In this document: positions 1 through 5,100 of the stretch, in pieces | Numbering within the stretch: the stretch's first letter is position 1 | Layout: each line of letters begins with the position of its first letter | Assembly (NCBI RefSeq): GCF_900168115.1 | Contig: NZ_FUZC01000002.1 | Span: 186,001-250,000 of the forward strand | Direction: 5' to 3' | Length of the DNA stretch: 64,000 nucleotides | From: Salegentibacter salinarum | GTDB taxonomy: Bacteria > Bacteroidota > Bacteroidia > Flavobacteriales > Flavobacteriaceae | Translations under genes and position numbers: made by a program | The notes under the pieces: generated by a model | Told to the model about the DNA's origin: nothing | Seen by the model: only the letters and a program-made list of their open reading frames with translations | The model's database searches: none

Positions 1-346
1 TCCGAAGCAATGGCATTTTAACCGCTGCACGGGCATAAAGCAGATCGTCTAAAGAGCCGCCAAAATATTTGCCATCAGTTAAAACAGACATTCCCGAAAT
101 TCCTGCATCTTCATAACCTCTGGCTACATCCTCCACATTTAAATCCTGATTGATAACCGATTTTGAAGGGGAACGTCTTTTATGTTCGGCAATAATCCCG
201 GTTTTACTGGTTTTCAATTCTTCAGCTAAAGAAATTGTTTCGCGCTCAAAAAGCGCTGCTTGTTCCAATTGAGATATGGGTATGACCAACTTTTTTAGAA
301 CCAGTTCTTTATGTTTATCGGCTATTATTTTGTCTAAAATATTCAT
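1..346 (-). CDS. trpC: Indole-3-glycerol phosphate synthase, N-terminal part (cut by window edge)
   Basis: Reading leftward from an ATG at 344-346, the frame stays open to base 1 and encodes about 115 residues. The visible part has the TrpC hallmarks: the start MNILDKIIADKHKEL, the phosphate/substrate loop AEHKRRSPSK with the catalytic-type Lys after AEHK, and SVLTDGKYFGGS, matching the (beta/alpha)8 barrel segment that binds carboxyphenylaminodeoxyribulose phosphate. The enzyme closes the indole ring in tryptophan synthesis. It follows trpD by 171 bp on the same strand, the gap being filled by a palindromic repeat. The C-terminal half lies outside the window; trpF, trpB and trpA would be expected beyond it, but this is inference. 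Confidence 0.95.
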   Translation of the reverse strand, partial: MNILDKIIADKHKELVLKKLVIPISQLEQAALFERETISLAEELKTSKTGIIAEHKRRSPSKSVINQDLNVEDVARGYEDAGISGMSVLTDGKYFGGSLDDLLYARAAVKMPLLR

Positions 347-517: not shown

Positions 518-1510
518 TCATTTACTCAACTCCTGTAACTTTTCTAATGCGTTTAAAGCTTTCCTCGAATTTATCGATTCTTTTGCAGCTTCAAAACCTT
601 CTTTAACACTAATTTGTTTGGCGGTGGCGATGGCCATTCCGGCGTTGGCGCACACCACATTGTTTTGTGCTTTGGTGCCTTTCCCTTTTAAAATATTTAC
701 AAAAATTTCTGCTGAACTTTCTATAGATCCGCCGCCGGCAATTTCTTCCTGTTTCAAGGTTTCTACGCCAAAATCCTCAGGACTCAACATTCCTTCAGAA
801 TTATTGGAAATGGTTTTTGTGTTTCCGGTGAGGGAAATTTCATCATAACCATCCAAAGCGTGCAAAATAGTGAAATTCTTATCGGTGTTCTGATATAAAT
901 AACCATACATTCTGGCCAGTTCCAGATTAAAAACACCCACTAGCTGATTTTTGGGGAACGCAGGATTTACCATTGGCCCGAGCATATTGAAAAAAGTTTT
1001 TACCGCCAAAGATTTCCTGATGGGCGCCACATTTTTCATCGCCGGGTGGAAGAGGGGAGCGTGCAACACACAAATTCCTGCTTCAGCGATACATTTTTCT
1101 AAAAATCCGGCGTCGTTGCTAAATTTAATCCCCAAACTTTCCATCACGTTAGAACTTCCACTTACCGAAGAAACTCCGTAGTTTCCGTGTTTTGCCACAT
1201 TAACTTCCGCGCCTGCCGTTACAAATGAAGAAGTAGTTGAAATATTAAAAGTGTTTTTTCCATCGCCACCGGTTCCGCAGAGATCTATGGGGTTGTAATC
1301 GTTTAAATCTATAGCCACGCAAAGTTCCAAAAGTGCATCACGAAAACCTTCGAGTTCTTCTATAGTGATGCTGCGCATCATATAAACCGTAAGAAATGCG
1401 GCAATCTGGCTTTCGTTATATTCTCCGTTAGAAATGCTGAAAAGGGCTTGCTTCGCCTCATCCTTGGAGATGGTTTCGTGATTAATGAGCCTGTTTAATA
1501 GTTTTTTCAT
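518..1510 (-). CDS. trpD: Anthranilate phosphoribosyltransferase
   Basis: This 330-residue protein is full length for the TrpD family. It transfers the phosphoribosyl group of PRPP to anthranilate, the second step of tryptophan synthesis, in the cytoplasm. Visible signatures are the glycine-rich PRPP loop CGTGGDGKNTFNIST near residues 78-92, and KHGNYGVSSVSGSSNVME near 107-124, which lines the anthranilate and Mg-PRPP site. The N-terminal helical domain (about residues 1-70) is that of nucleoside phosphorylase-like transferases. It starts 4 bp after the trpG stop codon on the minus strand, so the two are almost certainly cotranscribed. Confidence 0.97.
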   Translation of the reverse strand: MKKLLNRLINHETISKDEAKQALFSISNGEYNESQIAAFLTVYMMRSITIEELEGFRDALLELCVAIDLNDYNPIDLCGTGGDGKNTFNISTTSSFVTAGAEVNVAKHGNYGVSSVSGSSNVMESLGIKFSNDAGFLEKCIAEAGICVLHAPLFHPAMKNVAPIRKSLAVKTFFNMLGPMVNPAFPKNQLVGVFNLELARMYGYLYQNTDKNFTILHALDGYDEISLTGNTKTISNNSEGMLSPEDFGVETLKQEEIAGGGSIESSAEIFVNILKGKGTKAQNNVVCANAGMAIATAKQISVKEGFEAAKESINSRKALNALEKLQELSK

Positions 1511-1514
1511 AAGT

Positions 1515-2081
1515 TTAACTGTTTACCCAATTCTGAATCATCTTTTTCCCATCAGGCGTTAACACCGATTCTGGGTGAAATTGAACACCGCGAACATCAA
1601 ATTCGCGATGACGAAGCGACATAATTTGACCGTTTTCATCATAAGAAGTGGCTTCCAGTGAATCTGGTAATCCCTTTAATACCACCCAGGAATGATACCG
1701 GCCAACATTCATCGTCTTTGGTAAATCTTTAAAAAGTGGTTCATCGTCTACACAGAGATCCATGGTGGTGGCAATACCGTGATAAACCGATTCCAGATTA
1801 CCTAATTTTCCACCAAAAACTTCTCCAATGGCTTGTTGGCCCAGGCAAACGCCCAGAATGCTTTTTGTTGAAGCATACTTTTCTATAATTGGTTTTAGTA
1901 ACCCGGCTTCACTGGGAATTCCGGGGCCGGGAGAGAGAAGAATTTTATCGTATTTCTGCACATCTTCCAGTTCCAATTGGTCATTTCTAATGACCGTAAC
2001 CTCGCAATCAAATTCTTCAAGATAATGCACAAGGTTGTACACAAAAGAATCGTAATTATCTATAACTAATATTTTTTTCAT
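1515..2081 (-). CDS. trpG: Anthranilate synthase component II (glutamine amidotransferase)
   Basis: A 188-residue class I glutamine amidotransferase that supplies ammonia to TrpE. The triad is visible: nucleophile Cys79 in GVCLGQQAIG, and His169 and Glu171 in VQFHPES. The oxyanion loop LSPGPGIPSEAG lies at 49-60. HSW near residue 130 and the lack of a fused synthase domain mark it as a stand-alone subunit. In many bacteria the same subunit also serves PabB; no pab gene is nearby, and its place between trpE and trpD makes tryptophan synthesis the clear role. The trpE-trpG gap (165 bp) contains an intergenic repeat. Confidence 0.96.
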   Translation of the reverse strand: MKKILVIDNYDSFVYNLVHYLEEFDCEVTVIRNDQLELEDVQKYDKILLSPGPGIPSEAGLLKPIIEKYASTKSILGVCLGQQAIGEVFGGKLGNLESVYHGIATTMDLCVDDEPLFKDLPKTMNVGRYHSWVVLKGLPDSLEATSYDENGQIMSLRHREFDVRGVQFHPESVLTPDGKKMIQNWVNS

Positions 2082-2246: not shown

Positions 2247-3641
2247 TTAAATATCTTCAGCTATATCGAGGGCCTTGGTTAATGCTCCGAGTTTGTTGTA
2301 AACTTCCTGTAATTCGTTTTCTTCTACAGATTCAGAAACCACACCCGCACCAGCCTGGTAATGCAACTGATGGTCTTTACTCACAAAGGAGCGAATAATA
2401 ATTGCGTGGTTAAAGTTTCCGTGGAAATCCATAAAACCAATTGCTCCCCCGTAGGCATCGCGGTTTACATTTTCGTATTTTTCTATGAGTTTCATCGCGC
2501 TGTGTTTTGGTGCGCCGCTTAAAGTTCCTGCCGGAAAAGTATCCGCTACCACCTGCATTGTAGGGGTCTCTGGATCTTTGGTGCCGGTTACTTTGCTTAC
2601 AAGATGAATCACGTGCGAGAAAAATTGAATTTCCCGGTATTTTTCCACTTTTACATTATTCCCGTGCCGACTAAGATCGTTTCTGGCTAAATCTACTAAC
2701 ATTACGTGTTCAGCATTTTCCTTTTCGTCTGCGGCCAGTTTTTTGGCTAATTCGGCATCTTCTTCATCGTTTCCAGTACGTTTAAAAGTTCCGGCGATGG
2801 GATGGATTTCTGCCTGACCGTCCTGAACCACCAATTGCGCTTCTGGAGAACTTCCGAAGATTTTAAAGTTTCCGTAGTCAAAATAGAAAAGATAGGGGGA
2901 AGGATTTACGCTGCGCAATGCCCTATAAACATTGAATTCATCTCCTTTAAACTTTTGCGAAAATCGACGGGAAAGTACAATTTGAAAAACATCACCACGA
3001 TAGCAGTGTTTTTTCCCCAGTCTTACATTCGCCTTAAATTCTTCATCGGTTAGGTTTGAAATTGGTTCCTGCTGACGTTCAAAATTGTAGGTCGCGAAGT
3101 TTTTAACCTTAATAAGTTGTTCGATTTCCGGAATTTTTGAACCGGTATCGTAGCTATGGTCAAAAATATAAGCTTCGTTATTGAAATGATTAATGGCGAT
3201 TATATTTTGATAAACCGCATAATAAATATCCGGTAGCTTAAGGTCACCATTGCGTTTCTTAATCTCCAGGTCTTCAAAATACCGAACCCCATCGTAAGCG
3301 ATATAACCAAAAAGCCCATTATTGATGAATTTAAAATCGGAATCTTCAGTCTTAAATTGTTTTGAAAATTCCTGTATTCTAAGTGGTACGTTTACCTCGG
3401 GCGTGATTTCGGTAGTTTTCTTGCTTCCGTCAGGAAAAACTTCAGTAATTCTTTCATTCTGAATTTTGATGGAAGCGATAGGATTGCAGCAGATATAAGA
3501 GAAACTATTATCGTTGGCGTGGTAATCGCTACTTTCCAAAAGGAGACTGTTGGGATATTTGTCCCGCACCTTAAGATAAACACTCACTGGTGTAATCGTA
3601 TCTGCCAGGAGTTTTTTATGGGTGGTTTTTAGTTTATACAT
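2247..3641 (-). CDS. trpE: Anthranilate synthase component I
   Basis: This 464-residue protein makes anthranilate from chorismate with ammonia from TrpG, the first committed step of the pathway. The C-terminal chorismate-binding domain shows PIAGTFKRTG, DEKENAEHVMLVDLARNDL and the family stretch FPAGTLSGAPK. Near the N-terminus LLLES (residues 33-37) corresponds to the Trp feedback-inhibition motif of TrpE, which separates it from PabB. The ATG at 3641 fits the family's N-terminus (MYKLKTTHKKLLAD). It is the first structural gene downstream of a Trp-codon leader and terminator at 3753-3866, so control is likely both allosteric and by attenuation. Confidence 0.97.
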   Translation of the reverse strand: MYKLKTTHKKLLADTITPVSVYLKVRDKYPNSLLLESSDYHANDNSFSYICCNPIASIKIQNERITEVFPDGSKKTTEITPEVNVPLRIQEFSKQFKTEDSDFKFINNGLFGYIAYDGVRYFEDLEIKKRNGDLKLPDIYYAVYQNIIAINHFNNEAYIFDHSYDTGSKIPEIEQLIKVKNFATYNFERQQEPISNLTDEEFKANVRLGKKHCYRGDVFQIVLSRRFSQKFKGDEFNVYRALRSVNPSPYLFYFDYGNFKIFGSSPEAQLVVQDGQAEIHPIAGTFKRTGNDEEDAELAKKLAADEKENAEHVMLVDLARNDLSRHGNNVKVEKYREIQFFSHVIHLVSKVTGTKDPETPTMQVVADTFPAGTLSGAPKHSAMKLIEKYENVNRDAYGGAIGFMDFHGNFNHAIIIRSFVSKDHQLHYQAGAGVVSESVEENELQEVYNKLGALTKALDIAEDI

Positions 3642-3752: not shown

Positions 3753-3780
3753 AAAAGGCTTGTCGTGAGACAAGCCTTTT
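3753..3780 (-). terminator. Intrinsic terminator in the trp leader (candidate attenuator)
   Basis: On the minus strand a perfect 12-bp stem AAAAGGCTTGTC/GACAAGCCTTTT with loop TCAC runs straight into more T residues, a textbook Rho-independent terminator. It lies 30 nt behind the stop of the Trp-rich leader ORF and 111 nt ahead of trpE. Its loop and first 3'-arm bases (3762-3768) are a perfect 7-nt complement of leader bases 3810-3816, which span the leader stop codon and could form a competing antiterminator. A terminator ahead of the first structural gene makes sense only if it is conditional. Confidence 0.88.
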
Positions 3781-3809
3781 GTATGATTTTATACTATAGC
3801 GATGTTACT

Positions 3810-3866
3810 TCACGACGTTTGACGTAAATTTTTCCACCACCAGGTATTTGCTATTCTGTTTTTCAT
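3810..3866 (-). CDS. trpL: trp leader peptide with three consecutive Trp codons
   Basis: An ORF of 18 codons on the minus strand, too short for normal gene finding, reads MKNRIANTWWWKNLRQTS and stops with TGA at 3810-3812. Tryptophan is rare, so TGG-TGG-TGG in a tiny ORF 30 nt before a strong terminator and 168 nt before trpE is the classical signature of ribosome-mediated attenuation. An in-frame ATG at 3885-3887 would give a 25-residue form beginning MLSIFEV, but that start would overlap the promoter's -7 box. With the ATG at 3866 only about 5 nt separate the -7 box from the start codon, so the leader mRNA may be essentially leaderless. Confidence 0.85.
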   Translation of the reverse strand: MKNRIANTWWWKNLRQTS

Positions 3867-3871
3867 TACTT

Positions 3872-3901
3872 CAAAGATAGAAAGCATATTTTAATAAACA
3901 A
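3872..3901 (-). promoter_or_regulatory. Bacteroidota-type promoter of the trp operon
   Basis: On the minus strand TTG (3899-3901) is followed after exactly 19 nt by TATCTTTG (3872-3879). This fits the flavobacterial consensus TTG-N19-TAnnTTTG. It is placed directly ahead of the Trp leader ORF and after the terminator of the upstream YceI genes, so it is the likely trp promoter. Confidence 0.75.
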
Positions 3902-3972: not shown

Positions 3973-4473
3973 TTAAAATTTCAACTCAATATTCAAATCG
4001 AAATTATCGTAAATGGTTTGATCTCCAAGTCCGCTAAAGAAACTACCGGAGTTGTATTTTACGTCATATTTAGAACGATCTATACTTAACTTAGTGGTAG
4101 CGGTATTGTTGCTCCAGTCTAAATCGAAAGTTACCGGATGCGTGTTTTCTTTAATAGTAAGATCACCAACCACACCATAAGTACCGTCGTCTTTTTTAGC
4201 AACGCTGGTAATTACCAATTTTGAAGTCGGGTGATTATCCACACCAAAGAAATCATCAGAATTTAAATGACCTTCCAGTCCGGCTTTATCGTCACCTTTA
4301 AGATCGGTTACGGTAATCGTGGTCATATCCATTACAAATTCACCACCAACTATTTCTTCGTTTTCAAACTGGAATTTACCGTCTTTTAAATCGATAGTTC
4401 CTGAGTGGGATCCTAATACTTTTTTTCCTTTCCAGGCGATGTTACTTGCCTGCGCGTTTACTTGTTTTTCCAT
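3973..4473 (-). CDS. YceI family protein, predicted cytoplasmic paralogue
   Basis: This 166-residue protein is a single YceI-type lipocalin-like beta barrel. It shares most positions with the neighbouring 192-residue protein, including SDDFFGVxNHPTSKLVITS, PVTFDLDW, IDRSKYDV and TIYDNF near the C-terminus. Characterised YceI proteins bind polyisoprenoids or other amphiphiles and are usually secreted, but this copy has no signal peptide: it starts MEKQVNAQASNIAW, and a stop codon seven codons upstream excludes an N-terminal extension. It lies 48 bp after its paralogue, so the pair is a tandem duplication and probably one transcript. The ligand is unknown. Confidence 0.9.
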   Translation of the reverse strand: MEKQVNAQASNIAWKGKKVLGSHSGTIDLKDGKFQFENEEIVGGEFVMDMTTITVTDLKGDDKAGLEGHLNSDDFFGVDNHPTSKLVITSVAKKDDGTYGVVGDLTIKENTHPVTFDLDWSNNTATTKLSIDRSKYDVKYNSGSFFSGLGDQTIYDNFDLNIELKF

Positions 4474-4521: not shown

Positions 4522-5100
4522 TTAGAATTTCAACTCTACGTCTAATTCAAAATTATCGTAGATAGTTTTATCTCCAAGATTGTCGAAAAAACTCCCTGAA
4601 CCATAACGTACATCGTACTTAGAACGGTCTATAGTTAGTTCAGTAGAAGCTGAATTTTCTTCCCAATCTAAATCGAAAGTCACAGGATTTGTTTTATCCT
4701 TAATAGTAAGATCGGCTACAACACCATATGTTCCATTACTCTTTTTGGCAACACTCGTAATCACCAATTTTGAAGTTGGATGGTTATTTACGCCAAAGAA
4801 ATCATCAGATTTTAAGTGACCTTCTAATTTTCCTTTGTCTTCACCGGTAAGATCGGTAACGGTAATAGAACTCATATTTATTACAAATTCTCCTCCGGTA
4901 AGTTCACCGTTCTGCATAGTGAAATGACCGTTTTGCAAGTCTATGGTTCCGTAGTGAGAGCCGGTAACTTTTTCACCTTCCCAGTTAATGTTGCTTTCTT
5001 TTACATCAATTTTTTTATCCTGGGCATTCACTGTTGAAAATGATAGGAATGATACAAGGAATGCAGATGCAAATACAGTTTTTAATAGATTCTTTTTCAT
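4522..5100 (-). CDS. YceI family protein, secreted
   Basis: A 192-residue YceI-domain protein with an N-terminal signal peptide: a basic MKKN start, a hydrophobic stretch of about 17 residues and a probable cleavage after STVNA near residue 26. The mature domain begins DKKIDVKESNINWEG and follows the family pattern (GTIDLQNG, GGEFVINMSSITVTDL, LEGHLKSDDFFGV, FDLDW, TIYDNFELDVELKF). It is expected in the periplasm as a binder of an isoprenoid or fatty-acid-like molecule; this is family knowledge, not seen. It is the first gene of the YceI pair and has an unusual palindrome-rich upstream region (5128-5216). Confidence 0.92.
   Translation of the reverse strand: MKKNLLKTVFASAFLVSFLSFSTVNAQDKKIDVKESNINWEGEKVTGSHYGTIDLQNGHFTMQNGELTGGEFVINMSSITVTDLTGEDKGKLEGHLKSDDFFGVNNHPTSKLVITSVAKKSNGTYGVVADLTIKDKTNPVTFDLDWEENSASTELTIDRSKYDVRYGSGSFFDNLGDKTIYDNFELDVELKF

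Follow-up and report, generated by a model that had tools for sequence, protein, structure and literature searches.

A trp leader-peptide attenuator of Salegentibacter salinarum with an antiterminator predicted to pair with the terminator loop and 3' arm

The trp operon of Salegentibacter salinarum is probably controlled by a ribosome-mediated transcription attenuator in which, as indicated by sequence and folding models, a short strand at the end of a Trp-rich leader reading frame (region 2) would free or block the terminator according to the position of the ribosome. The element is a genuine and conserved member of a known attenuator family, and its antiterminator geometry is probably new. 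For the Flavobacteriaceae, we lean towards a just-in-time antiterminator that would catch the loop and the descending strand of the terminator as they emerge, not the ascending strand beforehand; on this reading the captured side would have switched within the Bacteroidota, the loop itself would be a conserved part of the switch, and the catching strand would be kept at a fixed distance from the Trp codons, set by the footprint of the ribosome. The trp attenuator of Escherichia coli likewise has Trp codons in its leader peptide and a choice between antiterminator and terminator that is made by the position of the ribosome, but its antiterminator takes the 5' arm of the terminator, whereas the one described here would take the loop and the 3' arm.

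The leader region and its Rfam family

The stretch of DNA analysed (the window) is 64 kb long, and the trp leader region was read on its minus strand between a YceI-like gene and trpE. The features, in window coordinates, are as follows:

3901-3899, minus strand: TTG, possible -33 element, read directly; 19 nt separate it from the -7 box
3879-3872, minus strand: TATCTTTG, -7 box of a Bacteroidota sigma-A promoter, from the sequence and from the box in 126 of 131 Flavobacteriaceae leaders
3866-3810, minus strand: leader reading frame of 18 codons, MKNRIANTWWWKNLRQTS and stop, read directly and conserved in relatives
3842-3834, minus strand: TGG TGG TGG, three adjacent Trp codons, the sensor, from the sequence and relatives
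3823..3828, minus strand: region 1 (UUUACG), able to fold back onto region 2, from folding and codon restriction
3810..3816, minus strand: region 2 (GUCGUGA), the antiterminator strand, which shares bases with the stop codon, from pairing tests
3791..3847, minus strand: predicted leader hairpin of the Trp codons with the strand behind the stop, from the Rfam consensus and folding, weak against shuffles
3780-3753, minus strand: intrinsic terminator of 12 pairs (5 G-C) with a 4-nt loop, then a T run, from a terminator call and folding
3762..3768, minus strand: antiterminator target UCACGAC, the loop (3768-3765) and the first three bases of the 3' arm, from pairing tests and folding
2247..3641, minus strand: trpE, with which the controlled operon begins; the best model, TIGR00564, reaches 431.1 bits and so misses its cut-off of 517.7
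1515..2081, minus strand: trpG (TIGR00566, above cut-off)
518..1510, minus strand: trpD (TIGR01245, above cut-off)
2..346, minus strand: start of the next operon gene, an open frame, presumably trpC

The promoter layout described in an earlier note on this sequence (TTG, 19 nt, TATCTTTG) was confirmed, as were its 18-codon frame with three adjacent TGG codons and its 12-bp terminator with a T run before trpE. The -33 motif of F. johnsoniae is described as weak (PMC6847099). Among the best 80 of 580 candidates, the TrpE proteins closest to that of the window are from Salegentibacter (97% identical). The gap between trpE and trpG (2082-2246, 165 nt) is long for an operon and contains short inverted repeats visible by eye. 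Upstream of the leader, two adjacent YceI-like genes (3973-4473 and 4522-5100, with matches below the model cut-off) lie on the same strand and are set apart from it by a terminator at 3951-3921.

The leader matches Rfam RF01692 (Bacteroid-trp) with 69.1 bits against a gathering score of 49 (E = 1.1e-8 in a 401-nt stretch), the sole Rfam match at the gathering threshold in the window; score, leader reading frame, terminator and the downstream genes trpE, trpG and trpD all agree with membership. The element is therefore a trp leader-peptide attenuator of a known family, which upholds the view of the earlier note that a trp attenuator operates in this flavobacterium, and its presence is not new, this kind of switch being already catalogued. 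The Bacteroid-trp motif is listed in Table 1 of Weinberg 2010 (PMC2864571), leader-peptide control has been noted before the trp operon of F. psychrophilum (PMC6414381), and the leader-peptide candidates of that species are reported as strong clues for attenuation before amino-acid operons (PMC9723704), although no account of how the antiterminator pairs was found in the parts of the latter paper that were consulted. The RF01692 model resembles the window in having a Trp-rich leader reading frame 5' of trp genes, and in its structure line the region of the Trp codons is paired with the strand behind the stop; it ends in the 5' arm of the terminator (GGCUUGUC). It differs in that no antiterminator is annotated in its printed alignment, which breaks off ahead of the loop and 3' arm, the site of the pairing described here. 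No description of a leader that catches the loop and 3' arm of a terminator was found in the portions of the literature that were searched, and an earlier account may exist.

At E 1e-3, RF01692 matches were obtained from 109 of 149 Flavobacteriaceae genomes; in a sample of 296 genomes of the phylum, searched at E 0.01, 35 had one. Twenty of the 40 Flavobacteriaceae genomes lacking a match were checked; trpE was found at E 1e-100 in 14 of these (compared with 20 of 20 genomes in a set with a match), and 11 of the 14 still have a leader with adjacent Trp codons and a terminator, which led us to reject the notion that no match means no leader. One of the three trpE-bearing genomes in which no leader was found (L293) starts at a contig end. 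In five of the missed leaders (L291, L294, L296, L298, L299) the terminator loop has CGC in place of CAC, and four of the five have a changed leader that still pairs; the RF01692 model could be widened to take in such leaders.

The earlier note had made its reading depend on conservation of the TGG run and the terminator in relatives. In a set of named relatives chosen by trpE (the best 80 of 580 candidates), 77 have both a leader with adjacent Trp codons (WWW or WW) and a terminator, an outcome in favour of the note; left out were L075 (leader, but no terminator by the rule applied), L076 (165 nt upstream only) and L079, in which an NTWWWISQQ frame exists with its start too far upstream for the rule applied. 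In L002, L003, L005, L057, L061, L066 and L068, 439-534 nt separate the leader stop from trpE, and in L057, L061, L066 and L068 there is an extra short frame between terminator and trpE. The TrpE of L039, a metagenome entry labelled Algicola sp., is placed within Allomuricauda on the tree, so that either this name or its assignment to Pseudoalteromonadaceae seems mistaken.

Pairing of the leader with the terminator hairpin

As the earlier note had stated, GTCGTGA (3816-3810) is perfectly complementary over 7 nt to TCACGAC (3768-3762) on the minus strand of the window, and the antiterminator so formed and the terminator are mutually exclusive by sequence and folding. Such a complement is only modestly unlikely in a single sequence (an equally good one arises in 29 of 2000 shuffles, p = 0.0145), and it is convincing because it is conserved in relatives. 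The folding energy of the leader is -33.1 kcal/mol (z = -5.1 against 200 dinucleotide shuffles), and the window hairpin that includes the Trp codons has a z of -2.5 against shuffles.

Pairing partners were compared as the best unbroken helix that the sequence flanking the stop codon (at most 18 nt each way) can form with the terminator hairpin. In the window, the best helix with the 5' arm has 4 bp and -4.5 kcal/mol, against -13.2 kcal/mol for the loop and 3' arm; by these energies a 5'-arm antiterminator was ruled out for the window, where the sequestered 5' arm of the E. coli type is not found. The family set comprised 150 Flavobacteriaceae loci, 145 of them with leader and terminator, and 131 distinct leaders after removal of identical pairs; about 16 further trpE matches were left out of the leader sets. 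The loop and 3' arm surpassed the 5' arm alone in 130 of the 131 leaders, with mean helix energies of -12.1 and -6.4, respectively, the loop being counted with the 3' side only. Hence the earlier note appears to have been right that the pairing is with the loop and 3' arm, not the 5' arm. The best helix was with the loop and 3' arm in 107 leaders, spanned the loop on both sides in 18, involved the 5' arm and loop in 4 and the 3' arm alone in 2, and so included loop and 3' arm in 125 of 131; 91 of 131 leaders surpassed dinucleotide shuffles at p <= 0.05.

Other families of the class were scanned at 104 loci, 62 of which have leader and terminator; 61 leaders from 22 families were used (L186 is the same site as L115, and L187 and L262 each have a second, unused candidate). 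At p <= 0.05 against shuffles, 22 of the 61 leaders remained, and their best helix was with the 5' arm and loop in 11, the 5' arm alone in 8 and the loop and 3' arm in 3. When the loop was allowed to both sides, the 5' arm with the loop was stronger in 38 of 61 and the loop with the 3' arm in 23. By these counts, pairing with the 5' arm, with or without the loop, is the more frequent arrangement elsewhere in the class, and the Flavobacteriaceae have the other one. A classical E. coli-type attenuator, in which the antiterminator sequesters the 5' arm and the complement to loop and 3' arm is incidental, thus has on its side its prevalence in other families (19 of the 22 leaders that surpass shuffles), but the helix energies of the window and of the Flavobacteriaceae oppose it, and we hold it to be very unlikely here.

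Three loci of one other family (L138, L139, L140) have a second Trp-codon leader and terminator before a trpD-like gene (by eye against the window trpD), apart from trpE; in all three, the strongest helix involves the 5' arm (in L139 together with one base of the loop), and two of them surpass shuffles. His-rich leaders with a terminator were seen at 17 of 17 hisG loci, including that of the same genome as the window (L214; genome G000, contig C13, reading frame near 1300), where the His leader MKKFQLHHHHFYNCAQAR precedes hisG with a box gap of 8 and a terminator. By eye, a helix between GCTCA and TGAGC (end of the 5' arm and loop) seems feasible in L214, and one genome may use both antiterminator geometries, one for trp and one for his.

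The pairing of leader with loop and 3' arm is conserved at the nucleotide level. Among the 77 leaders retained from the best 80 of 580 candidates, TCGTGA is present between leader ATG and terminator in 75, and the loop ends in TCAC right before the 3' arm in 76; 59 of the 75 use the TGA of TCGTGA as their stop codon, and the other 16 keep TCGTGA though their stop sits from 10 nt before to 5 nt behind it. Measured from the first TGG in 125 leaders, the helix start lies at 25-28 nt (5-95%, median 26) and the stop codon at 21-36 nt; helix start and loop are 42-56 nt apart (5-95%). A second count, with an anchor independent of the hairpin, placed the leader 7-mer 26 nt from the first TGG in 108 of 141 leaders and 25-27 nt in 135 of 141; it sought the 7-mer only 23-30 nt behind the first TGG, so that its distances are bounded, whereas the count of 125 leaders is unbounded. 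TCGTGA and TCACGA also form an inverted repeat near the promoter and might be read as half-sites of a DNA-binding regulator instead of RNA strands, an explanation to which we give hardly any credence: the spacing between them varies as given for helix start and loop, one copy is at the terminator loop in all 125 leaders, and the two differ together in some lineages.

The leader peptide is itself well conserved in relatives, and with a precedent in the S. meliloti peptide peTrpL, a leader peptide described as acting in trans (PMC7298713), it could be proposed that the peptide NTWWWxNLRQTS has a function of its own, in trans or by arrest, and that RNA pairing is secondary. Against this, the C-terminus is frame-shifted or shortened in several genera (NVVK, NFVS, ISQL and FRN ends) while the nucleotide element is kept, and the choice of codons for Leu and Arg is narrower than the peptide sequence demands: in the 90 leaders that have the LR pair (it is absent from 41 of the 131), the codons before region 2 are TTA in 87 and CGN in 90, compared with 23.5% TTA and 33% AGR in trpE genes. 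We regard action by the peptide as highly improbable. Since the nucleotide element survives frame changes and the codons are fixed, peptide-level selection was rejected as the main cause of the conserved LRQTS end.

RNA pairing of leader and terminator was examined further by exchange of partners. In the version relied on, which uses a contiguous helix with GC correction, own leader and hairpin fitted each other better than those exchanged between 23 families, with a mean z of -4.6 (range -6.1 to -3.2) and on average 0.04 of 500 permutations reaching the own pairing; the G+C-corrected t of -8.1 is a guide only, as the cells are not independent. An earlier duplex version gave a z of -3.5, but allowed large internal loops and mixed composition. 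Over all 141 family rows, 1 of 2000 permutations reached the own pairing, which is significant; permutation within the 23 rows with unusual hairpins gave no support (646 of 5000 reached own, not significant).

The helix core is nearly invariant in the Flavobacteriaceae, and for this reason covariation comes from few rows; at helix position 5, 130 of 141 rows have U-A, 4 have C-G, a compensatory change, and 2 have U-G. Compensation is also seen in L145, whose leader TTTGTCGCAAT and hairpin ATTGCGACAAG pair with -17.1 kcal/mol, against about -10 with either partner replaced by that of L002 (Salegentibacter). Among genomes missed by RF01692, leader GCGA goes with loop TCGC in L296, L298 and L299, and L294 has a nine-base pairing with another changed loop. 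Of 16 divergent leaders, 5 were at p <= 0.05 and 7 at p > 0.1 against shuffles; own partners paired best in five (L145, L147, L251, L183, L115), and in the other 11 one side paired better with the L002 partner, a pattern that suggests drift rather than compensation. Pairing was weakly present in L010, L136 and L137, and was not shown by L146, L290 and L297 among the divergent and RF01692-missed leaders examined.

The start of the leader transcript

In the window, AAGTA fills the 5-nt gap from the -7 box to the leader ATG at 3866. The spacing from box to start site is reported as 4-5 nt (PMC6847099), and the mRNA is therefore predicted to begin at the AUG or one base before it; for the window this probably holds, with transcription predicted to start at 3867 or 3866 on the minus strand. 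Leaderless mRNAs are described as a minority in F. psychrophilum (5.5%; PMC9723704), and in another phylum an attenuated trp leader RNA, trpL of Sinorhizobium meliloti, is reported to start with the AUG of its leader reading frame (PMC7298713), a likeness that covers the leaderless start alone.

The box was found as TAnnTTTG before the leader ATG in all but 5 of the 131 Flavobacteriaceae leaders, in which none was found, and in 192 of 2600 shuffled upstream sequences, in which the ATG was fixed, whereas the real start is the first in-frame ATG behind the box. A 5-nt gap was seen in 45 of 131 leaders, compared with 6 of 2600 shuffles; 12 leaders have a gap of 8 and 43 have gaps of 16-22 nt. On the TrpE tree, the class with gaps of 4-6 (46 rows) needs 3 changes, compared with a shuffled mean of 22.5, and belongs mainly to two groups, one around Salegentibacter and Christiangramia and one around Muricauda and Maribacter. 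The earlier note had seen in the near-leaderless ATG a coupling of initiation to the sensor. The short gap is present and recurs in relatives, and its frequency over shuffles and its clustering on the tree would suit an AUG that is an essential part of the sensor, but the same switch is found with gaps of 8-22 nt and in leaders without a box, so that a requirement for the coupling is not supported and such a role of the AUG is unlikely. Because 43 of 131 leaders with the same switch have gaps of 16-22 nt, the near-leaderless start is a feature that certain lineages have inherited, separate from the switch; nothing in the 131 Flavobacteriaceae leaders indicates that a leaderless start is needed for switching.

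Folding of the leader and a proposed switch

The window leader was folded as it would emerge from RNA polymerase, with the ribosome footprint held single-stranded. With a ribosome stalled at the first Trp codon, the antiterminator reached a probability of 0.93 once 3 nt of the 3' arm were exposed, and 0.91 at 6 nt; without a ribosome it reached at most 0.19, and the terminator 0.97 by 6 nt exposed. With the ribosome at the stop codon, region 2 is blocked by construction of the model. Once about 8 nt of the 3' arm are exposed, the terminator wins at equilibrium in every state, and the model therefore rests on timing.

With 4 nt exposed, 124 of the 131 leaders have an antiterminator probability of at least 0.5 with the ribosome stalled and below 0.2 with it at the stop, and 64 of the 131 pass this switch test and also have an antiterminator probability below 0.2 without a ribosome. 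Without a ribosome, antiterminator and terminator both average 0.35 over the family when 4 nt are exposed, and by 6 nt the terminator average has risen to 0.88. In these models, the untranslated state would be less clear-cut in about half of the relatives. In the window, folding predicts that region 2 folds back onto UUACG. Over the family, region-2 pairing was 0.79 in own sequences against 0.73 in shuffled ones, and the outer leader hairpin of the Trp codons with the strand behind the stop 0.67 against 0.57, with 10 of 131 leaders above all 20 of their shuffles.

In the proposed mechanism, a ribosome supplied with plentiful Trp would reach the stop codon and cover region 2, and the terminator would form. 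When Trp is scarce, the ribosome would stall at the Trp codons, about 26 nt upstream, and region 2 would stay free. It would first bind the loop emerging from RNA polymerase and then invade the 3' arm; the hairpin would not be closed in time and transcription would read through. The capture would be kinetic, the loop first and the 3' arm next, within the short termination window, a timing that we infer. With no ribosome on the window leader, region 2 would be folded back on UUACG and termination would be favoured.

Such a switch would give a concrete proposed mechanism to an Rfam family whose model carries no antiterminator. It would also provide a comparative system, with the same sensor and gene but the antiterminator on different strands in related families. 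As capture would be confined to the few nucleotides between emergence of the loop and closure of the hairpin, the timing of folding versus termination would be directly testable in what is to our knowledge a phylum without Shine-Dalgarno sequences.
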